Origin: Planctomycetia bacterium
Lineage (GTDB): Bacteria; Planctomycetota; Phycisphaerae; Phycisphaerales; SM1A02
Direction: 5' to 3'
DNA length: 48,322 nt
Assembly (NCBI GenBank): GCA_005790605.1
Contig: SXUI01000004.1
Location: forward strand, 1-48,322
The position numbers were made by a program, and so were the translations under genes. The notes below the pieces were generated by a model that was given only the letters and a program-made list of their open reading frames with translations, was not told the origin of the DNA and searched no databases. Every line of letters starts with the position of its first letter. Within the stretch, counting starts at the first letter, position 1. Shown piece by piece: positions 7,398 through 22,145 of this stretch.

Positions 7398-8140
7398 TCC
7401 ACGCAATCGCCTGTCGTCGGAGCACGGCGCCAACGGCACAGCCCTAGCGCAACAAGTGCCAGCGCGAAGAAGTGGTAGCCGCCAAACGGCCCGAGTATGC
7501 ACTCTCGCTCGCGCACGAATTCAAGTCCGAAGCGCACGGCGCCGGCGATGATGAGATAGAGATGGAAGCAGTTTCCTTCGAGCCATCGTCGTCGGAACGC
7601 AATCCAAGCCCACGCAGCAAAGAGGAAGTTGAATGCGGCCTCGACAGCCTGAGTCGGAAGGTGCGCGTGGCCATCAGCATCGTGCCAGGCGTACCACGCA
7701 TCGTCGCAACTCACGCCCGCACAACAACCAGCCATACAGCATCCGATTCTTCCGAGGCCGATGGATGCTGGGACGAGGACCGCGAATCGATCACCTGTAA
7801 CGCGCGTCACTCCGAGAGCGTGCTTCGCGATCTCGACAGCGAGATATCCACCGAGTAACGCGCCAGTCACGCTCTTGCCTGTGAGCAATGCCATCCAGTC
7901 GTCGGCGCACATCCAACCTTCGGCGATCAGGAACGCGGCTTTCGCTCCGAGCATTCCACCCACGAGCGCCGCACCATAGATGAGCAGCATGCTGCCGCTT
8001 TGCGCTTGACCGCCGCCACGCCCTCGATCCACGCGCGAGAGAGAATCCCAGAGCACCGCTGACAACCCGACGCCAAACAGTGCAAGCAGAAGATACGCGA
8101 CGCTTCCGCGCGACATCGACTGCAACACCAAGCTCGTCAT
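7394..8140 (-). CDS. Lgt-like prolipoprotein diacylglyceryl transferase family membrane protein
   Basis: A 248-residue polytopic membrane protein of the Lgt family. Lgt normally moves diacylglycerol from phosphatidylglycerol to the lipobox cysteine. The Lgt signature is present as LGRIGCCMAGCC (about 128-139), and the C-terminal RFGLEFVRE matches the conserved R..IEF.R segment with an essential arginine. About seven hydrophobic segments are seen. It is shorter than typical Lgt (270-300), and the signature loop is unusually cysteine-rich (GCCMAGCCAGVSC). Its start codon overlaps the 3' end of the radical SAM gene, so the two are co-translated. That context makes a lipid-modifying paralogue at least as likely as the housekeeping Lgt. 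Confidence 0.72.
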   Translation of the reverse strand: MTSLVLQSMSRGSVAYLLLALFGVGLSAVLWDSLSRVDRGRGGGQAQSGSMLLIYGAALVGGMLGAKAAFLIAEGWMCADDWMALLTGKSVTGALLGGYLAVEIAKHALGVTRVTGDRFAVLVPASIGLGRIGCCMAGCCAGVSCDDAWYAWHDADGHAHLPTQAVEAAFNFLFAAWAWIAFRRRWLEGNCFHLYLIIAGAVRFGLEFVRERECILGPFGGYHFFALALVALGLCRWRRAPTTGDCVD

Positions 8141-9654
8141 CGCTTCTGCTCCGCGTGCATACGCGCTTCGAAACCCGCCTTCCCCCCATGAAGGTAGTAA
8201 TGGCAGAAGGAATCAAGCGACCCATCAGCGCGAACGACATGCGTGCAGCAGCGATCAATGCGATCCTGATCAAAGCTGAATGCATCCATAAAGGGCTTGA
8301 TGAAGATGCGAAACGGCATGTCGGGCGTCAACCGCAGAGACTTCCCTGCGTCGCCCACCGATCCAACTCGCGACTCGATCTCCTTCAGGACGAGCCCGAG
8401 CGGCTCCGTCTCGCATCCGCATGTGGCAAGGTCTTCGATGCGATAGTCGATGCGATTCTTGAGAAACCCTTGCAATACGGAGAGATCGATGAATCGAGAA
8501 ATGCCGCGGAGTTCGCCCAATGCACGCAGTGCGTAACCAATGGTGTGGCAATTCGGATCGCCACACGGAAGCGGCGTGAAGTCTGCGTCGCTGAGGACGC
8601 CATTGGATTGCTGCACGCAAGATTCCACAAGTTCACCCACCGAGATTGGAAACTCGTTGGTGCGAAAAAGCGGCAAACCGCCCGTCGATGCGAGCGTTGG
8701 AATGCGACCGGACACGAACACTGGTTGCAGCGTGATCCCGCGAACATGTGGTCGCGTGAATCCAAACGCGAGCGCCGTTCCGATGTGCGGAAGTGTCGCG
8801 CGAGTCACCGTCATGGCGAGCGTCGTCGGAATGCCGAGCGAACCAGCCGCATCAATCGCCCGTTCGCGGAGCGCGCGGAGATCCGCGCCTCGAAGTTCCT
8901 TCTGTCCTTCAATCTGTGTGCCGTCGAACTGCGCGTACAACTCGAACTTTCCTCGTTCGCGTCGCAGCGCGCCAAGTCGCTCACGGAACGCAGCATCTCG
9001 ATCGATTCGAACGAGGTTCGTGTTGATGAGGACATAACCGACCTGCTTCTGCTCGAGTGCCCACTCGAGTATGCGCTCAAACTCCGGATGAATCGTGGGC
9101 TCGCCGCCTGAGAGTTGCAGAATGTCGATGAACCCCTTCCGCTCAAGCACACTGGAGACTCGTTGAACGAATTCGGAGAATGGCGTGCAATCCACCGTGC
9201 CGTCCGCGCCAAGAGGACTGCTCGCAAAGCAAGTTGGGCACGAGAGATTGCAGCTGTCAACAATCTCAATCAGAGCAACGCAAGTCGAGAGCACATCGAA
9301 TGGACTCGACACGCCTTCGCGTGCAGCTCCTTTGTTCATCGCGCTTCCACAACAACCACCGCCGCCACAGCAACTGTCGCTCGAAGCACCAACGGCACTT
9401 CGATCGCCTGCGCTCGTGTAGTAACGCGATGGATGAGTCTCGAGCCGAGTTTCAAACTTGCCGTGCGCGAGGCACTCCTTCACCATCCAAACCGCGCCGC
9501 TTCGCTCCATGACCTGCGCGGAAATTTCCATCAAACACTGCGGACAAACCGAATGCGTGTCTTTGAGAAGACGCGCCTGCGACGATTGGAAAAGCTCGAG
9601 CGCCCGCGGCGTCACGCATTGAGAGCCACCGTGAGGCGTTTCATCCGTTGGCAT
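8137..9654 (-). CDS. Tes-like radical SAM enzyme (COG1964 type) with N-terminal zinc/rubredoxin-like knuckle
   Basis: A 505-residue radical SAM protein. The cluster motif CNLSCPTC (about residues 135-142) binds the SAM [4Fe-4S] cluster, and LQLSGGEPTIHP (about 181-192) is the SAM-binding GGE motif. The N-terminal part has CPQC followed by CLAHGKF (about 37-67), and the C-terminus has FDQDRIDRCCTHVVRADGSLDSFCHYY. Both blocks match the family that includes MJ0619 and the archaeal tetraether synthase Tes, which carry extra clusters. A run SCCGGGGCCGS (about 94-104) is an unusual cysteine-glycine linker. The reaction here is unknown; family members join or modify lipid chains. TTG 9657 directly precedes ATG 9654; I use the ATG, which overlaps the upstream stop as TGATG. 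Confidence 0.85.
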   Translation of the reverse strand: MPTDETPHGGSQCVTPRALELFQSSQARLLKDTHSVCPQCLMEISAQVMERSGAVWMVKECLAHGKFETRLETHPSRYYTSAGDRSAVGASSDSCCGGGGCCGSAMNKGAAREGVSSPFDVLSTCVALIEIVDSCNLSCPTCFASSPLGADGTVDCTPFSEFVQRVSSVLERKGFIDILQLSGGEPTIHPEFERILEWALEQKQVGYVLINTNLVRIDRDAAFRERLGALRRERGKFELYAQFDGTQIEGQKELRGADLRALRERAIDAAGSLGIPTTLAMTVTRATLPHIGTALAFGFTRPHVRGITLQPVFVSGRIPTLASTGGLPLFRTNEFPISVGELVESCVQQSNGVLSDADFTPLPCGDPNCHTIGYALRALGELRGISRFIDLSVLQGFLKNRIDYRIEDLATCGCETEPLGLVLKEIESRVGSVGDAGKSLRLTPDMPFRIFIKPFMDAFSFDQDRIDRCCTHVVRADGSLDSFCHYYLHGGKAGFEARMHAEQKR

Positions 9655-10172
9655 CAAGAGCGACCGAAGTTAGGTTCCGGAGAGAGCAGACACGCAAATC
9701 CCATCCAGCCAACGACAAACGCGGGAAGTAGCGCGAACGCAAGCGTGAGAAAAAAGAGCACGCCGCCGCCAATAGTAAGAAAACGCCCGCGACTCGAGTT
9801 GCGCCGCCAAGGAGGCACGCACTCTCGCACCAAGCGGCGAGCGTAGATGTATCCGTTCAGCATGACGACGGGAACCATGATCGCCCCGCAAACCATCGCG
9901 AGCCCGAGCAGTCGTTGCTGCCGTCCATCATCGATGACCGAAAAAAGAGCGGGAAGTCCGAGGAGCAGCGGCCAACTCAATCGGCCAAGGACTGCGCCCG
10001 CGGGAGGCCAAGGCTTCACCCAATACTGCGTCGCGGCCGTGTACGACAGGCCGCACTCCGGACAGTTTCCCTCGCTCGGCAATCCCCTGAGACTAAAGGA
10101 ACATGCGGCGCACAAGGGCCCGTGAGAGGGATCGGAGCTCGGCTGTAGGGGTGTCGAGGTCGCGTCCGACAT
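9654..10172 (-). CDS. Zinc-ribbon membrane protein of unknown function
   Basis: I do not recognise a named family. From the ATG at 10172 the protein has 172 residues: a polar N-terminus, a zinc ribbon (CAACSFSLRG...CPECGLSY, about 21-46), then three or four hydrophobic segments (near LSWPLLLGLPALFSVI, LLGLAMVCGAIMVPVVMLNGYIYA and FLTIGGGVLFFLTLAFALLPAFVVGWMGFACLL). The open frame continues further upstream, but that part is low-complexity and lacks a good start. Membrane proteins with a C.AC...CPECG head of this kind are frequent in planctomycetes. It is the first gene of an operon with the Tes-like and Lgt-like genes, with stop and next start overlapping. Confidence 0.75.
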   Translation of the reverse strand: MSDATSTPLQPSSDPSHGPLCAACSFSLRGLPSEGNCPECGLSYTAATQYWVKPWPPAGAVLGRLSWPLLLGLPALFSVIDDGRQQRLLGLAMVCGAIMVPVVMLNGYIYARRLVRECVPPWRRNSSRGRFLTIGGGVLFFLTLAFALLPAFVVGWMGFACLLSPEPNFGRS

Positions 10173-10606: not shown

Positions 10607-11308
10607 ATGGGAAAGAACACAAAGTCTAGAGTCGGAAATCACCGTTCCAGCGCGTCACGAAACACGCGATCGCGGGCACACATCGTCGGCGTCGCGCTCG
10701 TAAGCACATCGCTCTGGAGCGCCTCACACGCCCAAGCTGATGTCGTGGCGTTTTGGTCACTCAACACCCTCAACCCCCTCGGCGCGCCAAACATCATGGC
10801 TGATGTTGGGAAGGGAACCATCGACGTCTCTGGGTTCGGGCTCGACGCACAGGTCTATCAGGGGACGACCTTGAACGCTGAGAGTGGGTTCACTGCAGGC
10901 ACCGCGCTTGGACTGGCTGGCATGAGCGCCAACGGAAGTCATCTCGATGTTGCGATCGACACCGTTGGGTTCATGGATCTGTCGATGACCTTCGCGAGCC
11001 GGCGATCCGCGACCGGATTCGCAAGCGTGACTGTGCAGTACTGGCGCGGCGATCTGTGGGCCGATGTCGAGACCTTCTCCCCCAACGCACTCAATTGGGA
11101 GGTACGGATGATCGACCTCACCTCACTCGACGCACTCGAGGGCGGAGTTGCGCTTCTGCGCTTCACATTCGATGGAGCGACAGGTTCCACTGGCAGTGCG
11201 CGCATCGACAATCTCTCGGTGACGGGAAGCGTCGTCCCTGCACCGGCAGCACTCAGTCTCTTCGCGTGCTGCGTTGCTCGAGGTACTCGACGGCGCCGCA
11301 TCGACTAA
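10607..11308 (+). CDS. Secreted protein with PEP-CTERM-like C-terminal sorting signal
   Basis: A 233-residue exported protein. It has a basic N-terminus and a hydrophobic segment (about 26-42, RAHIVGVALVSTSLW) with a likely signal-peptidase site near SHAQA-DV. The mature part is beta-rich with a lectin-like look (GFMDLSMTFASRR, VQYWRGDLWADVETF, SARIDNLSVTG). The C-terminus reads VVPAPAALSLFACCVARG followed by TRRRRID, a VPxP motif, a short hydrophobic stretch and a basic end as in PEP-CTERM/VPxPA proteins sorted by exosortase. The hydrophobic stretch is shorter than usual. A strong ribosome binding site (GGAGGA, 10595-10600) fixes the ATG at 10607. Function unknown. Confidence 0.8.
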   Translation: MGKNTKSRVGNHRSSASRNTRSRAHIVGVALVSTSLWSASHAQADVVAFWSLNTLNPLGAPNIMADVGKGTIDVSGFGLDAQVYQGTTLNAESGFTAGTALGLAGMSANGSHLDVAIDTVGFMDLSMTFASRRSATGFASVTVQYWRGDLWADVETFSPNALNWEVRMIDLTSLDALEGGVALLRFTFDGATGSTGSARIDNLSVTGSVVPAPAALSLFACCVARGTRRRRID

Positions 11309-11374
11309 CGCGTCGATCATCAAGGACACAACGCAAGCGCGAGCGAACGCGAACCAAAACCTGCATCTTCTCTC

Positions 11375-11412
11375 AAGCCTCTCCGTGCCCATTCGTGGGC
11401 ACGGAGGGGTTT
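11375..11412 (+). terminator. TTCG-loop hairpin followed by T-run, copy 1 (likely rho-independent terminator)
   Basis: Left arm CTCCGTGCCCA (11381-11391), loop TTCG (11392-11395), right arm TGGGCACGGAG (11396-11406), an uninterrupted 11-bp stem. It extends outwards through AAGCCT paired with GGGGTTT, including wobble pairs, to about 17 bp. It is followed by TTTT and lies about 65 bases after the stop of the PEP-CTERM-like gene. Shape and place fit an intrinsic terminator on the plus strand. Confidence 0.75.
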
Positions 11413-11635
11413 TCCCGGCTTCGAGGGTGATCGCTCCGCCCGTGAGTCCGACAAGCATCTTCTCTAGGTTCGGGAGGGCGGATAGTCGAAGGCCAAAGAG
11501 GCGCCCGGCGCGTGGATGCCAAGGAGGCGAGACGATGCTGTATCCGAAGCGATACAGCGAGTCGATGTCCGACAAAGCCAGCCACGATGCCTCGCGACTC
11601 GACGCCCGACGATCCGCCTGACAGGACCGCCACCT

Positions 11636-11661
11636 CTCCGTGCCCATTCGTGGGCACGGAG
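11636..11661 (+). repeat. TTCG-loop hairpin, copy 2
   Basis: The same CTCCGTGCCCA-TTCG-TGGGCACGGAG core as copy 1, 255 bp downstream and in the same orientation, with GGGGTTCT after it instead of GGGGTTTT. Identity extends a few bases on both sides (CTCTCC... to ...GGAGGGGTT). It lies about 95 bases beyond the 3' end of the minus-strand operon, but on that strand no T-run follows, so terminator activity for that operon is doubtful. Confidence 0.7.
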
Positions 11662-11756
11662 GGGTTCTCATGGAATTCTGCGAGCATGGACGCTCGCGCA
11701 TTTGCGAGGGTTGAAAACCACTCCCTTGTGCGTGCGCGTGCAATGACTGTGGCTTG

Positions 11757-12812
11757 TCAGCGGATGTTTGCTGGATCGATGATCCAGAGCCAATCACCGA
11801 ACAAAAACTCCAAGCGTTGCGACAACAGCGTGATGCGTCCCATCACGGTCAGTCCGAAGGCGGCGCCAAATGTAATCATCAGGTACCAGATTCCAACGCG
11901 CGACACCTTTCCGACCATCGAGCCGACTCGGCCCCTGTGCTCGATGGAAAAGAAGAAGTAGGTGAGCACCGAAAGCACTCCGACGAGCAACACGATATTG
12001 CCGAACGATTCACTCCACTGCACTTGGCCATCGTTCAACGCAACAAGCGGCTTGATCGTGTTGGAGGCCTGCGCCATCAGGTCGCCCTCGATGAACGCGA
12101 CGAACTTCAGTCCTGCGGTCGTCCCGATGATGAATGCGAGTGGCCAAACAGAGATCCAACCACCCTTCGGTGAAAGACGCATCAGCAGCATGATGCCGAG
12201 GATCAACGGGACGAGCGCGATGAGGAGCGTGCTGAGGCGGCCATCTGCGTCGATCGGAAGCGATGGGATCGCCCATGCCTTCACCGTCTCAGGCGCCAGC
12301 TTGGCGAACAGATTCGGAACCAGCGTCGCCCAGAAACCCAGCGTCATCCAATACGCAGCGCTGACACCGACGAGCACTGATTCCGCAAACTTGTAAACCG
12401 GATTATCTCGCCAGAGAAATGAGAAGATTGCCAATGTAAAGAACGCCGCGATCCACAACCCCAGCGAATCAACTACGCTCAACGAGACACTGGTGTCGCC
12501 GCTCTCCATGCGCTCACGCGCTGTTCGGGGCGCAACGGTCGCGGTCTCGGTGACCACGATCGGTACCTGACTTGGCACCGCGACGGCGCGACCGTCCGTA
12601 AACGATGCGCTGTCTTTGACGAGCCATTTCGTCGTCGCGGATTCGTCGCTCGGCGCCCCAATGGGCGGAGCCACATTCGCCTCGATGTAGGTCTGCTCCG
12701 TCCGTTCGACATACACCTTCGCCATACCGTGAGGGCGGACGAATGCGTTGTAGGCCAACCCGAGTCCGCCAACGATGAAGAGGGCGAGCCAAACGGTTCT
12801 TGAGGTACTCAT
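11757..12812 (-). CDS. Polytopic membrane protein of unknown function (last gene of the MutL/DUF6754-like operon)
   Basis: A 351-residue protein, not recognised. An N-terminal membrane segment (about 7-26, VWLALFIVGGLGLAYNAFV) is followed by a polar region (about 28-115) that would lie outside the cytoplasm, then about six further membrane segments between 115 and 345 (WIAAFFTLAIFSFLW, FAESVLVGVSAAYWMTLGFWATLV, LLIALVPLILGIMLLM, VWPLAFIIGTTAGLKFVAF, IVLLVGVLSVLTYFFF, YLMITFGAAFGLTVMG). The ATG overlaps the stop of the upstream gene as ATGA, and GGGAG lies just before it, so the two are tightly coupled. The two N-terminal-anchored proteins probably belong to one membrane complex, inferred from operon structure only. 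Confidence 0.8.
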   Translation of the reverse strand: MSTSRTVWLALFIVGGLGLAYNAFVRPHGMAKVYVERTEQTYIEANVAPPIGAPSDESATTKWLVKDSASFTDGRAVAVPSQVPIVVTETATVAPRTARERMESGDTSVSLSVVDSLGLWIAAFFTLAIFSFLWRDNPVYKFAESVLVGVSAAYWMTLGFWATLVPNLFAKLAPETVKAWAIPSLPIDADGRLSTLLIALVPLILGIMLLMRLSPKGGWISVWPLAFIIGTTAGLKFVAFIEGDLMAQASNTIKPLVALNDGQVQWSESFGNIVLLVGVLSVLTYFFFSIEHRGRVGSMVGKVSRVGIWYLMITFGAAFGLTVMGRITLLSQRLEFLFGDWLWIIDPANIR

Positions 12813-13780
12813 CGCGTCGCTCCCTTCGTTCGAGTTGCAAAGTAGACGATGTTCCCGAGGATGATGAGCGACACCATCAGCAGGTGCGCGATGAGTTGTG
12901 GACCCATTCGTCGTTGCCCTTCCTGCAGCACCGCTGGCACTTGCGTTTCTGAAGCATCACCAGCGGCGGATTTCGCCATTGCGGCCTGCGCGGCGGCAAT
13001 CGCTTCCGTCCTCCCATACTTTTCATTCACGAGCACTTCGTACTCAGCCGCCCCTTTGATCGCGACCAACATGCCCTTCATTTGACCTGGGTAGTAGGGA
13101 TACAGCTGATTCGACTGCACGCCAGTCGTGCCCACGAGCAGTGAAAATGCATCGGGATATGCAGAGGTCGCGTATTGCGCCCACTCCTTCGCTCCGGGAT
13201 ACCCCGCACTGATGTTCACAATGAGATCGAACGCCTGAATGTTTGCGACCCCTTTCAGCATCGGGATCTCTTGCAGTGGTGTTCCACTCGCATCCGTCGG
13301 GAACTGTTGAACGAGCGTGGTGACGATGACCTTGATCACGCCCTCATTTCCCGCCTTGTACCCAAGCATGCAGTAATCCGTGCCTAACTTGTACTCCGGA
13401 TGAAACGGCTTCAGGATCGTGTCAACCGTCTCGGTTGCCTTCTGTGCGCCGAGTGGCCAAAGCGCGAGAAATGCCAGCCGATGTCCCTTTGACGCGCAGT
13501 GGTGCACGAATGCATTCGCCATCGGCTGCAGTTCGCCCTCGCTCGCTGGGTCGTAGTCAAACGCGAGCAGCACGCGCGAGCCAGCGGGCATCGCTTCGAT
13601 CGCGTCAAAGGTTGCCTTTGAGAGAGGGCCCGCCGTCTCAGCTGGTCGAAGTTGGAGCAAGATTGGTGTGCCAACCGCGAGCATCATGGCCAAGAAGATC
13701 CAGCGGCGATCCATCGATGCAAGAAACTCGATGACTCGTCCATGCTTCGGATGAGATTGAGGCGTGTGCTGTGTACTCAT
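12809..13780 (-). CDS. Membrane-anchored protein of unknown function with extracytoplasmic domain
   Basis: A 323-residue protein, not recognised. One membrane segment lies near the N-terminus (about 28-45, RRWIFLAMMLAVGTPILLQL) and one near the C-terminus (about 297-315, LIAHLLMVSLIILGNIVYFAT). Between them is a domain of about 250 residues with alternating hydrophobic strands and polar helices (SRVLLAFDYDPASEGEL, HRLAFLALWPLGAQ, DLIVNISAGYPGAKEW, FSLLVGTTGVQSNQLYPYYPGQMKGML), which looks like a Rossmann-like alpha/beta fold. It lies 94 bases after the next gene upstream and overlaps the following gene by ATGA. Confidence 0.8.
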   Translation of the reverse strand: MSTQHTPQSHPKHGRVIEFLASMDRRWIFLAMMLAVGTPILLQLRPAETAGPLSKATFDAIEAMPAGSRVLLAFDYDPASEGELQPMANAFVHHCASKGHRLAFLALWPLGAQKATETVDTILKPFHPEYKLGTDYCMLGYKAGNEGVIKVIVTTLVQQFPTDASGTPLQEIPMLKGVANIQAFDLIVNISAGYPGAKEWAQYATSAYPDAFSLLVGTTGVQSNQLYPYYPGQMKGMLVAIKGAAEYEVLVNEKYGRTEAIAAAQAAMAKSAAGDASETQVPAVLQEGQRRMGPQLIAHLLMVSLIILGNIVYFATRTKGATR

Positions 13781-13874
13781 GCGATTGCCATGTACTTGAA
13801 CTTGCTTTCAGCCCTGCGCAGTCACGAACCCATCAATCAAACTCAAACCGCTCACTCTGCATGCGTCAAATCAA

Positions 13875-14576
13875 TCACTCACTCACGAGATAGGAACGGT
13901 CGAGCCCCAAAATCAACCGAAGGCTCGTTGCCGCGATCCCAAGCGCAATGCCCATCATGACGGCGCGGGTTCCTGCGGTGCTCACATACTGCATGATGTT
14001 CACCGCGAGCGTGTCGAGTCGGAGCACTGCGAATGGACCATCCACCGGGATCCAACCCGTGAGGATGGTTGCAGCCGCGGTTCGACCAAGCAGGATGACG
14101 AAAGCCGTGCCAAGCAAGAGGATCGCCTCAATGTTCTTGGCGCGGAACGCGCGAAACGCTGCGCTCGCGACATAGAACGCAAGCATCGCGAACATCGTCG
14201 CCGTCAACGGCGACAACACATACTCATACACCCAACCAAACGGTGCGCGCACCGACTCAAAGTCTCCCGCCCAAGGCGTGGCAGGAAACTGTGGATTCGG
14301 AATCGCGCCAATCTTGAGCACGCCAAATGCAAGTGTCACGACGAATGCCAAGAGCGTCACCGCTGCATACGCCCAGCCCGGTCGCCGCGAGGAGATTTTC
14401 TCAAGATTGACGAACAGCAGATTGCCGCCGCCGAGAATGAACGCGACCGCTGCGAGTGTGTTCATCCAATCCGTCACGACCTCACCCCAGTTCGTCGTCG
14501 CGGGCGAGAAGTACGCGACAATCAATACCGCGCCAGCGATGCCTGTGATACAGAGGGGAATAGTTCGCTTCAGCAT
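13875..14576 (-). CDS. Polytopic membrane protein of unknown function
   Basis: A 233-residue integral membrane protein with about six hydrophobic segments (IPLCITGIAGAVLIVAYF, WMNTLAAVAFILGGGNLLFV, AAVTLLAFVVTLAFGVL, LTATMFAMLAFYVASAAF, AILLLGTAFVILLGRTAAATI, AVMMGIALGIAATSLRLILG). A ribosome binding site (GGAGAG) precedes the ATG at 14576. It follows the DUF6754-like gene by 54 bases on the same strand. I do not recognise a characterised family; the operon position suggests it is a membrane partner of that protein. Confidence 0.8.
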   Translation of the reverse strand: MLKRTIPLCITGIAGAVLIVAYFSPATTNWGEVVTDWMNTLAAVAFILGGGNLLFVNLEKISSRRPGWAYAAVTLLAFVVTLAFGVLKIGAIPNPQFPATPWAGDFESVRAPFGWVYEYVLSPLTATMFAMLAFYVASAAFRAFRAKNIEAILLLGTAFVILLGRTAAATILTGWIPVDGPFAVLRLDTLAVNIMQYVSTAGTRAVMMGIALGIAATSLRLILGLDRSYLVSE

Positions 14577-14630
14577 GCACTCTCCTACGAAAACACCCGT
14601 CTCAACCGACGGGAATCACACACCACAACT

Positions 14631-16001
14631 TCATCCAAGCGCGTCAACAAGCCAAGATGCAGCCGACGCAGCACTTCCTTCGGGCGCGAACGCGCCGATC
14701 GTCGCAAGCAAGGTGCCAACGACGATGCACACGGCGACGAGCGCCTTGCCAAGATCTTGGCCTCGAATCGAACCAAGCTGCGCTGGTTCTCCGCTCAAGT
14801 ACGCGCTTGCCGCGAAGAACTCCTCACCAATCAACGTGTAGTCGCACGCCGCAACGAAGAATGGAAGCTGCGAAGGCTCCGCTGTTCCGCTGATCTGAAT
14901 CGCACCAACGGCATTTCCTGTTTCAGCGAACAACAGGCTCTCTGCGTAAAACGCGCCCATGTAGAAACAGGCCGCGGGCTTCTCTCGCACCATCTTGCCG
15001 GCGACATATGCGACATATCCAAACTGCTCATCCGTCACATAGTTGATGAGATCCGGTCGGAAACTCTCGGGGCGATGCACAGCGAAGTGCGCTGCCTGCA
15101 CTGTCTCGCGCGCCGCGGTCATCACGAGCGATCTCGTCGTCGGAACCTCAAGCGTCGCGTCGTACTCTGCCGTTGTGCGAGCAACTCGCGAGAGCACCGT
15201 CAGACCCGCGACTGTTTGAATGTCTGTCATGTCCTGAATGCCGGGGACGAACAAAACCGATCGGCCCATCTCTGTCGCGCGTCCAACCGCCTCGTCAATC
15301 GCGTTCAATGCTGGGATCTTTCGCAGTTGGGGGATCCGAACTCGACACGCACGCCACACGCTCCAACCGATGAGGAAGCTCAATGCGGCAATGCCCACCA
15401 TGAGTGGCAGTCGCGAAGCGAACAACGCGGAACGCTCCGTAACGATCGGTTCAAGTGTTTCGACCGCAGTTGAGCGAACGCCGTCCCGCGACGCCTGCGC
15501 GCGAAATCGAAATCCCTTGTCGGCCGTGGGGAGATCGGTCACCTCATATCCGACCGCGCCCTCAGGGCCAGATGCCACGCCAATGAACTTCCATCCAAGT
15601 TCAAGGTCGCTCTCCATCGCTCGCTCAGCATCGGCTGCCGCCTGCTCTGCGACTTCGCGACTCGCGTTCGCTGCAAGCGCATTCGCTGCAGCTGCGATGC
15701 GTTGCTCCCGAATGACCGCCGCGCGCTCTTCGTCGCCTAGTGTGCGAGAAAGCAGAACCTGAGATCCACTCTCGACACCACTCCAACGGAGCACGATTGC
15801 TCGACCATCATCGCCTGGCTTGTCGAACGCGACGAACCCGCCCACTGTCGGCGACACCTGCGCGTGCTCCGGAACTTCCGCGCTCGCAGGCGACAGCGCC
15901 ACGCTCCATCCATAAACCCAACAGCAGGCCCATGCACAAGTCCATGCGCCAGGCAGGCGCAGAGCGCGTGTGAGTCGACAGTGCAGGATGGATTTTCGCA
16001 T
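14631..16001 (-). CDS. DUF6754-like membrane protein with extracytoplasmic FN3-like domain
   Basis: A 456-residue protein with a signal/anchor (about 15-40), an extracytoplasmic beta-rich region of about 150 residues with FN3 character (AIVLRWSGVESGSQVLLSR, GYEVTDLPTADKGFRFRAQA) interrupted by an Ala/Glu-rich coiled-coil stretch (about 90-130), a membrane segment (LPLMVGIAALSFLIGWSVW, about 202-220), a cytoplasmic domain (GRSVLFVPGIQDMTDIQTVAGL, TAARETVQAAHFAVHRPE, FYMGAFYAESLLFAETGNAVGAIQISGTA) and a last membrane segment near the C-terminus. The cytoplasmic part resembles what databases call DUF6754, from memory only. TTG 16004 precedes ATG 16001; GGAG at 16007-16010 is correctly spaced for the ATG. 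Function unknown. Confidence 0.75.
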   Translation of the reverse strand: MRKSILHCRLTRALRLPGAWTCAWACCWVYGWSVALSPASAEVPEHAQVSPTVGGFVAFDKPGDDGRAIVLRWSGVESGSQVLLSRTLGDEERAAVIREQRIAAAANALAANASREVAEQAAADAERAMESDLELGWKFIGVASGPEGAVGYEVTDLPTADKGFRFRAQASRDGVRSTAVETLEPIVTERSALFASRLPLMVGIAALSFLIGWSVWRACRVRIPQLRKIPALNAIDEAVGRATEMGRSVLFVPGIQDMTDIQTVAGLTVLSRVARTTAEYDATLEVPTTRSLVMTAARETVQAAHFAVHRPESFRPDLINYVTDEQFGYVAYVAGKMVREKPAACFYMGAFYAESLLFAETGNAVGAIQISGTAEPSQLPFFVAACDYTLIGEEFFAASAYLSGEPAQLGSIRGQDLGKALVAVCIVVGTLLATIGAFAPEGSAASAASWLVDALG

Positions 16002-16024
16002 CAAGGTCTCCGCAGCAACACGCT

Positions 16025-17158
16025 CTACGCTTCAATCAACTCGACATTGGCTCTCGGCACAACCACGCTCGCGCCGCCTTCGATCTTCACGCGCACCACG
16101 CGCGCCTTGGAACCGCTTCCAAGAATCGCCGCTTCGGTTGGCAATGCTTCGACCGCGCCAATGCGACCAAAGTTTGGATCGCGGATCAATCGCACGGATG
16201 TGCCGACCTCCAACGCGCCCGCCTCTGTCGAAGCCGCGCGCGCGAACTGCACATGCACCTCATCAGTTGACCTCGCGACGATGATTTCAGGTCGCATCAC
16301 TCCCGCACGAATCTGTGTCGCTCCGTTGACGCTCGCCGCGCGGCCTTCAAGTGAACGAAGTAACTCGTAAGTCCGCTGCGCCATCGCGATGTCGCCGAAC
16401 CCTTCAGTGATCACAAGCGTGAGTCCAATGCGTTCGGAACCAGTGATCGCGACACCGAGGTCGTAACCCAGGATGTCCTTGAGATCCGCGTCATCGATGC
16501 CACCCGTGATGATGGCCGAAACACCAACCTCGCGAGCGCGCGCCACCGCTTCTGCCGTGACACGGCCGCCACCAACAAGCACCGCGCCCTTGAACGCTGC
16601 GTGGATGGATGCCGCTTCAAGCGTGTCGGATGCGCGCGTCCCTGCAAATCGAATGTCGCCAAACGCTTCGCCACCAATGCCAAAGATCCCTTGCACGAGC
16701 GCGACATCGCATTGAATCGTGACGCCTTCGCCATCGTGCACCGCAACGACCTCGCCATCAACAAACGCGAGGACTTCGACAGGCAACGCCGCGCCCCGCA
16801 CCATGAGTTGGCCAGTCGTGCCTGAAATGCTCTCGATCGTGCCACTCTCGGGCGCGGCAAACTCCTTCTTGCCAAACCCAAAGATGCCTTTGGATCGCGC
16901 AATGACCTGACCCTTTTCAATGCGATCTCCCACTTGCACAAGCAGCGCCGATGGAACTTCCACCGCATTCAATCCAAGTCCATTTGCAACATGGATGGGT
17001 GTAATGTCACCATCAAGAAGCGCGCGCGCGATCGGCTGCTTCGCGGTCACTCGCTCCCCTACGGATGCGAGCACTTCTCCTGCAACAGGAAGCACGCGCC
17101 GGACCCGCATAGTGGTCCTTGCAGAGACTTTGAGTCCAGGCGTATAGGCCTTCGCCAT
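16025..17158 (-). CDS. Lipoyl/biotinyl-hammerhead and KOW-like domain protein of unknown function
   Basis: A 377-residue protein without signal peptide or clear membrane segment. The N-terminal part (about 5-120) has repeated hammerhead-like units (GEVLASVGERVTAKQPIARALLDGD, VQVGDRIEKGQVIARSKGIFGFG..FAAPESGTIESI), as in biotinyl/lipoyl carrier folds, but I see no MKM or DKA attachment lysine. The middle part (about 150-280) is alpha/beta and glycine-rich (AAFKGAVLVGGGRVTAEAVARAREVGVSAIITGG). The C-terminal 65 residues look like a KOW/SH3 barrel (VGTSVRLIRDPNFGRIGAVEALP). Start ATG 17158 is preceded by GGATAGG. It lies between the MutL-like and DUF6754-like genes with short gaps (48 and 23 bases). 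Confidence 0.75.
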   Translation of the reverse strand: MAKAYTPGLKVSARTTMRVRRVLPVAGEVLASVGERVTAKQPIARALLDGDITPIHVANGLGLNAVEVPSALLVQVGDRIEKGQVIARSKGIFGFGKKEFAAPESGTIESISGTTGQLMVRGAALPVEVLAFVDGEVVAVHDGEGVTIQCDVALVQGIFGIGGEAFGDIRFAGTRASDTLEAASIHAAFKGAVLVGGGRVTAEAVARAREVGVSAIITGGIDDADLKDILGYDLGVAITGSERIGLTLVITEGFGDIAMAQRTYELLRSLEGRAASVNGATQIRAGVMRPEIIVARSTDEVHVQFARAASTEAGALEVGTSVRLIRDPNFGRIGAVEALPTEAAILGSGSKARVVRVKIEGGASVVVPRANVELIEA

Positions 17159-17206
17159 AGTGGGCAACCTATCCTTAATCGAAACATCGCACACAGCGCA
17201 GCAGCA

Positions 17207-19042
17207 TCAAAGTGAGAAGGTCTCCCACGCGCGTGCCCAACTTGCCACCGCGAGTCGACGATCTGCCGCATTCGAAGGGAGAGCGAGCGCACGGCCACGG
17301 GCGTCAAAGAAGATTCCGAGCACGCCTCCCTTGACGCGTCGCGTCATTGGCTTTCCGGATCCCGCGCCAAAATCAAACCCCTTCTCGGGTTCGACCGTAA
17401 TCTCCACTTCGGCACCGTGAGGAACTCGGACGAGTGCGACATCACCGCATGCGAGGCTTCCTGATTGCTGCACCGCGCCACTCAACTTGAATTGGAAGCA
17501 CGGTTTACCCCACCGCGCTTCACCGCTCGCGGCCACGCACCAGCCAAGTCGCACGAGGCAATCGCGCTCAAACACTTCCATCGCCGCCTGCGGATGCACA
17601 CTCGCGAGAACGCCAAGGTGCGGCATCATGAAGATCGAGTCTTTCGCAAGCTCTGTGAACCCTCGTGGTTCGAAGCTATCAATCAACATCGCGGCTGTCT
17701 GCTCAAGCCTCGGTGCATGTGACAACACACCACCACTCGCAACGAGCAAGCCGAGGCTCATGTCATCAACGAGCGTGTCTCCCCCGCCTTGCTCAAAAAG
17801 ATCTCCAACCGTCCGCTGCTTCTGCACTCCCTTGAGCTTCGTCGCAAACTCCTTGTGTTGCGCGTACGCCAATCGCAGCGCCTCTCGCGCGACCGCCTGC
17901 TCAAACACCAGCGCGTCGATGCTCTCTGGAATCGTCGTGGGGCGAATCATCTTGTTCTTCACGCGATTCCGGAGTTCACGCTCCTCCATCTCGAGGTGCA
18001 CCCACCGAAGAATCTGATCCATCCCCGCTTCTGCGCACACATTGGAGATGGAGTAACTCATACCAAGGTTCGCACTCACCGTGCGATTGAAGGCCCCGTC
18101 GAACACGCTGAACACATCTGTCGTCGCGCCGCCAATGTCAACACAGACGGCGTTCACCTTGTCGCGCGCGGCGATGCGCTGAAGAATGTCGCCCACTGCG
18201 CCAGGTGTCGGCATGATTGGAGCGTCTGACATCGCGATGAGTTTTTCGTAGCCGGGCGCATGCGCCATCACATGCTCTAGAAAGACATCGTGAATGCGAT
18301 CCCGCGCTGGATCGAGATTCTCGAGCTCGAGCGTCGGCCTCAAGTTCTCAACAATGGACAGATCAAATCCCTTCGCAATAATCTCCTCGACGCGCGGCGC
18401 AGCATCTCGGTTCCCCGCGAAAATCACAGGCATCGCGTAGTCGCTGCCGAACCGCGGTCGCGGCTTTGCGGGTGCAATGAGCTCTGCGATTTGCACAACC
18501 TGCTGGACATTGCCGCCGTCCGTTCCGCCGGAAATCAGCACCATGTCAGGGCGAAGTTCGCGAATGCGCTGAATCTGCTCGTGCGGACGACGGCGATCAT
18601 TCGCCGCAATGGTCTCCATCACAATCGCACCGGCGCCGAGCGCCGCACGCTTCGCGCTCGCCGCAGTCATTTGCGCGACAACTCCCGCCACGACCATTTG
18701 CAAGCCACCACCTGCGCTCGATGTCGAAATGTAGAGATCACATCCTCGCGGGTCGTTCTCATTCGATCTTCGAATGATGCGGCCATCCGCATCGATGAAC
18801 TCGCGCCCCGCAAGCTCTCCTACTTCCGTGAGTGCATTGATCACGCCAATCGTCACATCGGCGAATGGCTCCTCCACGGTTGTGGGGGCTTCGCCTCGCT
18901 GCGTCTGCGAGTAGGTTCCGTCACTTTGTCGCTCAATCAGCACAGCCTTGGTGGTCGTTGAACCACAATCCGTCGCGAGAATGATGCGGACTGCGCGCAG
19001 ATCTATCGACGGATACGCTCTGGTTTGTGATGGCGCGGACAT
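17207..19042 (-). CDS. MutL/GlmL-type ASKHA ATPase (annotated in databases as glutamate mutase L)
   Basis: From ATG 19042 the protein has 611 residues. The ASKHA fold is clear: phosphate-1 loop DCGSTTTKAVL (25-35), phosphate-2 loop VDIGGATTDVFSV (301-313) and adenosine loop LLVASGGVLSHAP (432-444). The STSSAGGGLQMVVAGVV and VLISGGTDGG segments are typical of the MutL family, named after the accessory protein for coenzyme-B12-dependent glutamate mutase and usually taken to be a reactivating chaperone. No mutase subunit (GlmS-B12 or GlmE) or other B12 enzyme is in the window; the gene instead heads an operon of membrane proteins. A role as an ATPase for that complex is my inference. The divergent gene starts only 16 bases away. 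Confidence 0.85.
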   Translation of the reverse strand: MSAPSQTRAYPSIDLRAVRIILATDCGSTTTKAVLIERQSDGTYSQTQRGEAPTTVEEPFADVTIGVINALTEVGELAGREFIDADGRIIRRSNENDPRGCDLYISTSSAGGGLQMVVAGVVAQMTAASAKRAALGAGAIVMETIAANDRRRPHEQIQRIRELRPDMVLISGGTDGGNVQQVVQIAELIAPAKPRPRFGSDYAMPVIFAGNRDAAPRVEEIIAKGFDLSIVENLRPTLELENLDPARDRIHDVFLEHVMAHAPGYEKLIAMSDAPIMPTPGAVGDILQRIAARDKVNAVCVDIGGATTDVFSVFDGAFNRTVSANLGMSYSISNVCAEAGMDQILRWVHLEMEERELRNRVKNKMIRPTTIPESIDALVFEQAVAREALRLAYAQHKEFATKLKGVQKQRTVGDLFEQGGGDTLVDDMSLGLLVASGGVLSHAPRLEQTAAMLIDSFEPRGFTELAKDSIFMMPHLGVLASVHPQAAMEVFERDCLVRLGWCVAASGEARWGKPCFQFKLSGAVQQSGSLACGDVALVRVPHGAEVEITVEPEKGFDFGAGSGKPMTRRVKGGVLGIFFDARGRALALPSNAADRRLAVASWARAWETFSL

Positions 19043-19058: not shown

Positions 19059-19571
19059 ATGACTCCAAATGCGCCCTTGCGTAATGTGCGACTCGCAGTC
19101 ATCCTTCTCCTCATGCCGTCCTGCTCGACGCCAACACATCAAGTAGCGCTTCTTGAGTGGCGCGTCTGGCCGGCGCGCGAGTGGCCACGGCGAACGGCAC
19201 TTGCCATTGTGATTATCGCTGGGCTGGGTGTTGCTTCGGCGCTCCTGTTGCAATCGAGTACCGCGGCGGGCGTTGCCATCGGAGCAATGTTGCTCGCGAA
19301 CATCCGATTCTTCTTGCCCAGCAGTTACCGCGTTGACACCGAGAGCATCACGCTCACTGGAATGTTTGGCACGCGCTCGCTCGCGCTCTCGAGTATTCGG
19401 TTTCGACGTTTCGACCGATTCGGCGGTCTGCTTGCGGAACGCCTCCGCCCCGGACCGTTCGCGAGCCTTCGAGGGCTTCCAGTCCTGTTCCCCCGTCACG
19501 ACGGCGAGCTTCTTGCGAAGGAGCTTGGTCGATGCCTTACTTCACACTCCACGATTGAGACCACTCCATGA
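19059..19571 (+). CDS. Small membrane protein of unknown function, divergent from the MutL-like gene
   Basis: A 170-residue protein, not recognised. Two close hydrophobic segments (about 61-95, TALAIVIIAGLGVASALLL and AAGVAIGAMLLANIRFFL) are followed by a short soluble domain of beta strands (YRVDTESITLTGMFGTRSLALSSIRFRRFDRFGGLLAERL), like a small PH-like or bPH2 domain. ATG 19059 has GGAG at 19051-19054. A second ATG at 19113 (MPSCSTPTHQ) would leave more room for a divergent promoter and removes an odd N-terminus. The stop overlaps the next start as ATGA. Confidence 0.7.
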   Translation: MTPNAPLRNVRLAVILLLMPSCSTPTHQVALLEWRVWPAREWPRRTALAIVIIAGLGVASALLLQSSTAAGVAIGAMLLANIRFFLPSSYRVDTESITLTGMFGTRSLALSSIRFRRFDRFGGLLAERLRPGPFASLRGLPVLFPRHDGELLAKELGRCLTSHSTIETTP

Positions 19572-19963
19572 GCGTTCCAGCGCACTCTTGGAAGGCGACG
19601 CTGCGGCGCGCGTTTGCGCTCGACGATGGATCACCGTGCCAGCCTGAACCGCATCAACGGATCGTTCTTGAAAAACTCGCAGATGAAATCGCGAAGCGTG
19701 AACTCACCGGACCGGCACTCGCGTTTCTCGAAATGTCGCGACCGCTCAATGGCGTATCAAGCGCGGCCCTTCACTTCTTCACACCGATCGCGTCTGTGCT
19801 TGCCAGTCCCGTTGCGCTGAAGTCCTTCGCCGAGTTCCTAGAGAAACGAGGATCCGTGGACTATCTGTGCGGCATGCTCGAAGCCGCAGAACAACACGCA
19901 CAAGAGGTTCGTGCGTCACACGATGCGCAGGCGCGTGATGAACCGCCTACTCCGCAAGCCTAA
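19568..19963 (+). CDS. Small soluble protein of unknown function, coupled to the preceding gene
   Basis: A 131-residue protein without signal peptide. It reads as a helical cytosolic protein ([61 protein letters not shown]). The short hydrophobic middle (about 66-85) could be an amphipathic membrane-touching helix rather than a true membrane segment. It starts inside the stop of the upstream gene (ATGA), so both are co-translated, and its last 17 bases overlap the convergent chemoreceptor gene. Function unknown; a link to the divergent MutL-like operon is only suggested by position. Confidence 0.7.
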
Positions 19964-22034
19964 ATGCCTGCATGTTCTCGCGCAGCGTCACGCTTGTGCG
20001 CTGAAGTTCTTGCGCGGTCTTGCCGAACTCCTCTGCGCTCTCGACTGTTCGCCGCGCCGCCTCAACGAGCGCAGACATCGAGTCAGATATGTTCACCGCA
20101 CCTTCGGACTGACTTTGCATGCCCGCGGACACCGTGCGGAAGCGCGAGGTGTTTGCCGCCACATTCTCGATCACCTCGCCCATTTGGCGACTTGTGCGCA
20201 CAACCTCTTCGACGCCGCGTCGAACCTTCTCGCTAAAGCGATCCATCTCCATGACACCTGCGCCAACCGCAGATTGCATCTCTCGCACGATTTCCTCAAT
20301 ATCCACCGTTGCACCCGCGGTTTGATCTGCGAGACGACGAATCTCTCGCGCCACTACCAAGAAGCCTCGCCCCTGTTCTCCAGCTTTCTCCGCCTCGATC
20401 GCTGCATTGACTGAGAGCAGATTCGTCTGATCTGCGACTTTCGCGATCGTCGTCACCACCGTGTTGATGGCGACGGCGCGTTCGCTGATCGCCGAGAGCT
20501 TTGCGGCGATCGAGGATGTTGCGGATTGCAGTTCTCGCATCGTCCCATCGACCGCCGTCAGCCCGCTTCGTCCGTCGCTCGCGGTCTGCGCGGTTCGCTC
20601 GACCGCAGCATCGACCTCAGACATCGTGCGCGAGAGTTCGGTGCTCGTGGCACTAATCTGCCTTGTCGCTGCAGCGATCTGACTCGTCGACTCTCCAAAT
20701 GCCTGCGAGAGTAACTGCTGCTCGCGACTTGTCGCTGTCAGCTCAATCGCGCTTGAATCGAGCGTGACTCCCGCGCCCTTCACCGCGATCATCAGCGCGT
20801 TCAAGTTGGTCTGCATGCGGACAAGACTCCGCAGCAGCGCGCCCGCTTCATCTTGATTCCGGCTCACTGGGACTGCCGTTCGCAAATCACCATGCGCGAC
20901 GTGCTGCGCTGCAAGGGTTGCCTTTCGAAGTTGCGCGCCGGTGCGCATGGCAATCCATGCAATGAGGCCAACCGCAGCCGTGATCGACAGAACGAAAATG
21001 ATTCCCGTCCCCCACGCCGCTGTGGTCGCCGCGGCGAGCACAAGTGCCTCTGGTTTTGCAAGGACGAGCGTCCAATCTCCAGCTGGAATCTTTACGGATG
21101 CAGTGAGGAACCGCTCGTGCGTCGTCGGGTTCTCGACGACAGTGAGGACACCATCTTCCGTCGCGCTGCCAAGAACGGTCTGCAGCATCCAGTCCACACG
21201 ACTTCCGGCGACAGTCGTGGTTCGAAGGTTCGGAAGCGCATCCTTCGCGGGCGCTGTGCCGATGGGAGTATCGGTGGAAGCAACGACAAACCGGCCACGA
21301 CCCGAGATCAGGTATGCGACGGCATCACTCGCCTTCGCGCTCGCGCACACCTTTGCGTCAAGCTTGTCGAGTGCGCGATCGGCAGCGCCAACACCTTTGA
21401 ACTTCCCGTCCATCACGATGGGGTAGGCCGCTTCGACGATGAGTTGCCCGTCGTACACATACGGCTCCGTCACGAGCGTGCGCTGAAGACCTGACTGCGC
21501 GAAGTCCCGGCGCACACCGTCGTAGTAGAGACTCGTGTCGTAGTCCACGAGAGGCTTTATTCCAATCGCATCCCCCTTGCGCCAATCGCGAAATGGGTAC
21601 GGGATGAACCGACCCGATGACTCCATCCATTCCTTGGGGTCGCCGCCGCTCAGTGCAGCCGCGTCGTTGCCATCCGCATTTGGTTCGTAGCACACGTACG
21701 CGGCAGTCACATTCTCATCCGCCTCGAGCATCGCTGTGCAGACCTCGACTGTGAGCGAGCGCTTCCCGAACAACGCGCCGACCTGCTGCCGAGCGATGGA
21801 CTCAGCGAGTTCCATGGCGCGCTCGTTGGATGTCTCTACTTTCGCCGCCGCGATGTCTGCGTCTCGCAGCAGACTCTCCTCGCCAATCTCCCGCAAGTCC
21901 GCAAACCGCTCCATCGCTCCCCAAGCGAGGAGCGATGCGAGAAGCAGCGTCGCTGGAAGCACTCCAAGCATGAGGAGGCGACCTGCAAGGCTTTGGTAGA
22001 AGCGAATGCGCTCAGTTTCGCGGGGCGTTTCCAT
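19947..22034 (-). CDS. Methyl-accepting chemotaxis protein with double-Cache-like sensor domain
   Basis: A chemoreceptor of about 695 residues. An N-terminal membrane segment ([19 protein letters not shown]) is followed by an extracytoplasmic sensor domain of about 280 residues with Cache features ([57 protein letters not shown]), a second membrane segment ([20 protein letters not shown]), a HAMP domain ([16 protein letters not shown]) and the MA signalling domain with its hairpin tip ([38 protein letters not shown]). In the minus strand GAGGA abuts the first ATG (22040), so the second ATG at 22034, six bases further, is the likely start. Such Cache receptors usually sense small organic molecules; the ligand is unknown. 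Confidence 0.92.
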
Positions 22035-22145
22035 ATGCATTCCTCATTCTGACGCGAAACACGGATGTTACGGGATTAAAACGAGCTTCAACACTCCCTA
22101 CTGCGTGGGCACCAATCCGACTTGCAGGTGTTTACCATGTGAACC

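Follow-up and report, generated by a model that had tools for sequence, protein, structure and literature searches.

The locus described here raises the question of what a MutL-type ATPase, a protein that carries the name of glutamate mutase, does at the head of a run of membrane protein genes. The gene lies on contig SXUI01000004.1 of a Planctomycetia bacterium (assembly GCA_005790605.1), of which positions 1 to 48,322 were analysed; this whole stretch of 48,322 nucleotides is called the window below. We find that the ATPase gene belongs to a set of eight that is inherited together in a recurrent order, X-Y-A-B-(C-D-E-F)n, and that it is not tied to glutamate mutase. That these genes form a system is well supported; how it would work we infer. 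Our confidence is evenly divided on the full reading of the locus as an ATPase-linked transmembrane system of eight proteins, in which an ATP cycle would switch a membrane module. The genes are as follows, with coordinates in the window:

17207-19042, minus strand: A, a MutL-type (PF13941) ASKHA ATPase (ATG at 19042; the longest open reading frame starts at 19114)
16025-17158, minus strand: B, a barrel-sandwich-hybrid protein (RnfC_N/NqrA_N/biotinyl-like) with a possible KOW C-terminus (open reading frame to 17194)
14631-16004, minus strand: C, an exported FN3 domain, a transmembrane (TM) helix, a cytoplasmic DUF6754 domain and a second TM helix (from PF20539 and a structural model)
13875-14576, minus strand: D, a membrane protein with 6 TM helices by hydropathy, without a Pfam match
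12809-13780, minus strand: E, two TM helices flanking an exoplasmic Rossmann-like domain (from the charge rule and a structural model)
11757-12812, minus strand: F, a polytopic membrane protein with invariant polar residues, without a Pfam match
19113-19571, plus strand: X, a small two-TM protein (start chosen by us; open reading frame from 19059)
19568-19963, plus strand: Y, a protein of 131 aa from a family that recurs at the operon head

The genes are inherited as a set in a recurrent order

The original prediction described a six-gene operon, and all six open reading frames from A to F lie on the minus strand at the positions it gave. They are separated by short gaps (A-B 48 bp, counted from the B ATG at 17158; B-C 20 bp; C-D 54 bp; D-E 94 bp), and the E and F genes overlap by 4 bp. 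While these six genes stand, the unit was incomplete, as the X and Y genes (19113-19963, plus strand) had been overlooked.

We compared 121 loci, namely the window, 40 stretches from sampled genomes and 80 named loci (the best 80 matches rather than a census), and clustered the other open reading frames around them. This clustering returned X and Y as two recurrent families at the operon head. The next largest clusters, present in 15 and 14 of the 121 loci, looked generic among the 30 unannotated clusters inspected. The order X-Y-A-B-C-D-E-F is found on one strand in other loci; in the window X and Y are divergent from A, as is Y in locus L066. Among the loci with A, Y is present in 40 of 54 and X in 17 of 54.

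Two genes were scored as adjacent if they lay on the same strand with a gap of -700 to 300 bp, at least 1.5 kb from the locus edge and above bit-score floors. By this measure the 80 named loci keep X-Y in 7/7 cases, Y-A in 14/16, A-B in 15/18, B-C in 18/21, C-D in 90/97, D-E in 84/86 and E-F in 77/79. The corresponding counts for the other 41 loci, some of which were fetched on purpose around scattered genes, are 10/10, 21/26, 21/33, 25/30, 32/36, 33/34 and 33/33. Because the gene order recurs in many loci, the six-gene run is not a matter of chance, and relatives from several phyla mostly keep the membrane genes beside this MutL, as the prediction had supposed. The C-D-E-F part is itself repeated: 21 of the 121 loci have more than one C gene (two or three), and 19 have two or three complete C-D-E-F sets, directly in tandem in 16 of these (the others are L136, L139 and L161).

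By the titles of the records, the best 80 matches come from WOR-3/Stahlbacteria, Latescibacterota, Edwardsbacteria, TA06, Fermentibacteria, Zixiibacteriota, Cloacimonadota, Armatimonadota, Poribacteria, Eisenbacteria, Coatesbacteria, CSSED10-310, Hyd24-12, Zipacnadia and anammox planctomycetes. Misnaming is possible in a few cases, namely the metagenome-assembled genomes labelled Desulfuromonas, Proteobacteria and Nitrospirae. G203, listed under the phylum of the window, shares 4 kb of identical sequence with a contig named Candidatus Anammoxibacter (L092 versus L119), so the window is DNA of a planctomycete.

The same set emerges when genomes are compared. The sample comprised 244 genomes from the phylum, requested at 90% completeness, and was searched for A, C, E and Y. 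DUF6754, the domain of C, occurs in 83 of these and MutL in 85, above the cut-off in 82 (three weak matches, in G093, G165 and G204, were dropped). Both are present in 80 genomes and neither in 159, while two have MutL only (G029 and G109) and three DUF6754 only (G027, G171 and G038), a coupling with a Fisher p of 5e-58, uncorrected for kinship. The E profile matches exactly the 83 DUF6754 genomes; the Y profile matches 80, of which 79 have DUF6754 and the remaining one is G109. All four proteins are present in 78 of the 85 genomes that have any of them. Among 34 chosen genomes, B was found in 16 of 21 with DUF6754 and in G109, and in 0 of 12 others. In G184 the genes for Y (590 kb), A (1.01 Mb), B-C-D (2.58 Mb) and E (4.88 Mb) are all present, although scattered over four distant sites. 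Fifty genomes of named loci were also searched, 48 of them chosen for the lack of A in the locus fetched; MutL is above the cut-off in 46, including two (G247 and G268) with a short fragment only. We regard the inheritance of the genes as a set, their order and their predicted topology as established.

A belongs to the MutL family and is not tied to a B12-dependent mutase

A is a branch of a known ATPase family. It matches PF13941 with 425.8 bits over positions 1-450 of the 450-position profile (gathering score 27 bits), and the three ASKHA nucleotide-binding loops that had been pointed out in it are present; loosened patterns of the three loops match 53, 54 and 51 of 54 relatives of A. Judging from its sequence, A probably hydrolyses ATP. 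Its scores against the GlmL equivalog NF040745 (237 bits, cut-off 475), the Or-4 model NF040744 for ornithine degradation (211.5 bits, cut-off 600) and the GlmL family model TIGR01319 (glmL_fam; 169.1 bits, cut-off 204.05) are all too low, and because every GlmL-type cut-off failed, A falls outside GlmL by curated standards and inside PF13941. It is homologous to GlmL/MutL across the whole PF13941 domain with the ASKHA loops kept; it differs in having about 115 extra residues after that domain and, compared with GlmL, in being co-inherited with membrane proteins and lacking a glutamate mutase partner. PilM and FtsA are not among the Pfam matches of A at an E-value of 1 or below.

Searches for the glutamate mutase E subunit (PF06368), which did not extend to the aminomutase families, gave a match above the cut-off in 1 of the 244 genomes and in 0 of the 50 named carriers, with sub-cut-off matches in four genomes of each group; the host's own genome has none. 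The single positive genome, G029, has no DUF6754, and the MutL of 102 bits that adjoins its PF06368 gene is a different MutL, which scores only 42 bits with the profile of the operon A (L194:9220-10470). A gene of the methylmalonyl-CoA mutase family (PF01642) does occur elsewhere in the host genome. However, PF01642 is anti-associated with MutL in the sample (36 of 82 genomes with MutL versus 117 of 162 without), which is the opposite of what is expected for a dedicated helper. The original prediction is borne out in separating this MutL from glutamate mutase: these searches found no mutase elsewhere that accompanies it, with the PF01642 gene of the host as a reservation.

A might nevertheless reactivate or load a B12-dependent mutase encoded elsewhere, with the membrane genes as incidental neighbours. 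The family name, the 237 bits to the GlmL model and the PF01642 gene in the host genome agree with such a role, but the near absence of PF06368, the anti-association of PF01642 and the near-perfect coupling of A with C, E and Y, also where the genes are unlinked, speak against it. We consider this explanation largely refuted and very improbable.

B is a candidate adaptor

The likely start of B is the ATG at 17158, as indicated by the conserved N-terminus in an alignment of the B family (25 rows). Part of B resembles the N-terminal domains of RnfC and NqrA (PF13375 and PF05896). Window B scores 25.5 bits against RnfC_N PF13375, for which the gathering score is 25.6, and 16 of 25 B members match this domain at an E-value of 0.05 or below; window B matches neither the full-length RnfC nor the full-length NqrA models above their cut-offs, and it reaches 15.6 bits with RnfC TIGR01945 (cut-off 245.95). 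The biotinyl/lipoyl domain PF00364 is matched by 14 of the 25 members at an E-value of 0.05 or below (best 9.5e-07; window B 18.5 bits, cut-off 22.1).

The original prediction had B as a lipoyl-like/KOW protein acting as a carrier or adaptor. B is barrel-sandwich-like, but a lipoyl or biotin swinging-arm carrier was rejected because the invariant lysine is missing: no alignment column has Lys in more than 76% of the 25 rows. For a KOW domain at the C-terminus of B the support is weak, with matches in 4 of 25 members at an E-value of 0.05 or below. Matches to sequences of solved structures were weak (best E-value 0.08; RraA 0.19 and the SPT5 KOW domain 0.18) and are not relied on. We regard B as a candidate adaptor.

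In locus L127 (17468-20230) A and B are fused into one protein of 920 aa. Similar A-B fusions at L188:7274-9748 and L189:8309-10816 are extra MutL copies in G067, which also has the operon. Several named genomes also have additional MutL frames, about 860-990 aa long; the extra part was examined in L127 alone.

C and E are predicted to carry conserved domains on opposite sides of the membrane

C is a clear member of the function-unassigned family DUF6754 (PF20539; 365.2 bits, gathering score 27), here set in an eight-gene system and given a model fold and a topology. The exported FN3-like domain noted previously is supported by a sequence profile and by the model (Z 11.7), and in a search of solved structures the matches displayed (60 of 79) fell on the exported part, with FN3-type chains at the top. 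The domain of C that is strongly conserved lies in the cytoplasm, however, and is not exported: the excess of flanking Lys and Arg lies on the side of this domain in 130 of 132 members, with 0 opposed.

The structural model of C has a mean predicted local distance difference test (pLDDT) score of 83, with block means of 81-98 over residues 221-440. Its core is Rossmann-like and aligns to Sir2 with a Z of 11.7 over 141 residues (root-mean-square deviation (rmsd) 3.6), while a Foldseek search with the model gave no match at an E-value of 0.001 or below. That C is a sirtuin was rejected, as the Sir2 motifs GAGxS and QNxD are each absent from the core regions of all 140 C proteins; compared with sirtuins and the DHS-like NAD/FAD-binding fold, C is membrane-anchored and has no Sir2 profile match at an E-value of 1 or below. 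In C, fifteen residues that are polar or Cys are retained by 69-70 of the 70 aligned rows, and several invariant residues lie at strand ends of the model. Of 140 C proteins, one has a CxxC motif in its core region. The C proteins of Cloacimonadota (L128:114-2984, L167:7853-10777 and L169:7853-10777) have a far larger part before the core, at 956-974 aa in total, which suggests an extended exported region.

For D, E and F from the window there was no Pfam match at an E-value of 1 or below, and D and F gave isolated weak matches in single relatives. The domain of E is predicted to be exoplasmic, with the excess of flanking Lys and Arg on the outer side in 111 of 120 members and 7 opposed. Its model (pLDDT 92) is Rossmann-like, and its likeness to MTH777 (1kjn_A; Z 9.2, 139 residues, rmsd 3.5) and to the epsilon subunit of carbon monoxide dehydrogenase/acetyl-CoA synthase (CODH/ACS; 3cf4_G; Z 8.4, 146 residues, rmsd 3.4) is slightly above the stated background. 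We judged the likeness to the epsilon subunit weak, as short-chain dehydrogenases, which are unrelated, score within about 1 Z of it. In contrast to these two proteins, E is exoplasmic, membrane-anchored and without a family match. Neither Foldseek with the E model (E-value 0.001 or below) nor a sequence search of solved structures with E returned anything. His299 and Asn310 in the last TM helix of E are invariant (67/67), as are ten polar residues of F (35/35).

Sequence homology between C and E was rejected, since profile comparison gave 7% probability over the TM stretch only and E-values of 0.16-0.18 for the cores. The two models alternate strands and helices in a similar order, and we claim this similar fold order alone. 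A relationship between D and F was likewise rejected after a comparison that showed none. Locus L146 holds a divergent further set resembling C, E and F (11043-14125; 179, 29 and 31 bits), which may belong to a more distant family of modules.

A model for the system and its alternatives

In the mechanism that we propose, A, a cytoplasmic ASKHA ATPase, would dock via B onto the cytoplasmic Rossmann-like domain of C. The ATP cycle of A would then drive the membrane module C-D-E-F from one state to another, and in this way a conformational change or a solute would be handed to the exoplasmic FN3 and E domains. One A-B pair may serve several C-D-E-F modules of differing specificity; repeated C-D-E-F sets adjoin a single A-B pair, which suggests such sharing. 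A somewhat bolder version, to which we incline only tentatively, is that the system represents a new class of energy-coupled envelope machines, in which an actin-fold ATPase and an adaptor would power one or several four-protein membrane modules with cofactor- or ligand-binding Rossmann-like domains on both sides of the membrane.

Several observations weigh against this view. Of the ATP-driven membrane complex in the original prediction, the co-inherited gene set stands, while physical assembly and ATP-driven action are predicted from sequence. The sampled genomes are not phylogenetically independent, and the searches of all 244 genomes were for A, C, E and Y alone. The B profile had no match in five of the 21 DUF6754 genomes among the 34 chosen ones (G171, G027, G038, G104 and G073), and A was not found in G027, G171 and G038; gaps in draft genomes are conceivable in these cases. 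Y was not found in G027, G171, G215 and G239. Conversely, G109 has Y-A-B and neither C nor E. X, with its 17 of 54 A loci, may be accessory.

The strongest rival, although an unlikely one in our estimation, is a nucleotide-cofactor redox or ion-translocating complex, in which C on the inside and E on the outside would bind NAD(P)- or FAD-type cofactors and B would act like the N-terminal barrel-sandwich domains of RnfC and NqrA. ASKHA reductase activases are ATP-driven activators, and A could play an analogous part here. Window B is nearest RnfC_N and NqrA_N, the core model of C finds its best match in sirtuins (Z 11.7, 141 residues), E has its likeness to the CODH epsilon subunit (Z 8.4), and both the invariant C residues at strand ends of the model and His299/Asn310 in a TM helix of E would be in keeping with such a complex. 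On the other hand, we recognised no motif for flavin, heme or Fe-S binding, CxxC being confined to 1 of 140 C core regions, and B scores far below the cut-offs of the full-length RnfC and NqrA models. The Z of 8-9 for E is barely above background, with short-chain dehydrogenases within about 1 Z, and similarity of fold proves no function.

Two further alternatives are in our view less probable still, and to the same degree. A could act like the actin-fold proteins PilM and FtsA, organising the membrane module as a scaffold for assembly, secretion or division. The pairing of an ASKHA gene with genes for proteins that have one or two spans and exoplasmic domains, and the co-inheritance of A, C, E and Y, would suit this, as would the carrier lineages, which are known as diderm. 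However, A has no PilM or FtsA match at an E-value of 1 or below and is far closer to the MutL family, and looking through the 30 unannotated neighbour clusters by eye, we recognised no gene for a pilus, a secretin or division. The set could instead serve sensing or regulation: the membrane module would have the ATP state of A as its output and would perform neither transport nor mechanical work. The FN3 and E domains on the outside and the pairing of one A-B with several C-D-E-F sets are consistent with sensing, and a cluster that we judged PAS/kinase-like by eye, from the start of one sequence, neighbours 15 of the 121 loci; this cluster is large, generic and variable in distance and strand, though, and no output protein recurs inside the operon.

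Neighbouring features in the window

A 37-nt hairpin-forming repeat lies downstream of F in two copies of 97% identity, at 11378-11414 and 11633-11669, and its 22-nt core has no further exact copy in the host genome. A gene for a methyl-accepting chemotaxis protein (19947-22040) converges on Y, and the two genes share 17 bp at their ends. A radical SAM protein with an HMPTM zinc ribbon is encoded at 8137-9657; its nearest models are TrsS and Tes, below their cut-offs. The product of 10607-11308 is possibly secreted, with a C-terminus that we take to resemble a PEP-CTERM sorting signal.

Implications

We know of no system with the composition X-Y-A-B-(C-D-E-F)n, and for this reason we call the system categorically new. 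No description of it was found in the literature, judging by titles and the starts of abstracts, and DUF6754, PF20539 and PF13941 were not mentioned in the literature searched; many subscription papers lay outside these searches. The genes of the system are not named in those passages of a transposon-directed insertion site sequencing (TraDIS) study of P. limnophila (PMC10632474) that were matched by term.

The label "glutamate mutase L" is easily taken as a sign of B12-dependent glutamate metabolism in uncultured bacteria, and here it is misleading. Behind it lies a co-inherited membrane system present in 83 of the 244 genomes of the phylum and, by record title, in at least a dozen other lineages, with residues in C, E and F that are as invariant as those of enzymes. 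The system is apparently present in G184, which we take to be a genetically tractable planctomycete, and its role is thus directly testable there. If the bolder version of our reading is true, an energy-coupled envelope machine would be common among candidate phyla and anammox bacteria, concealed by the label glutamate mutase L.

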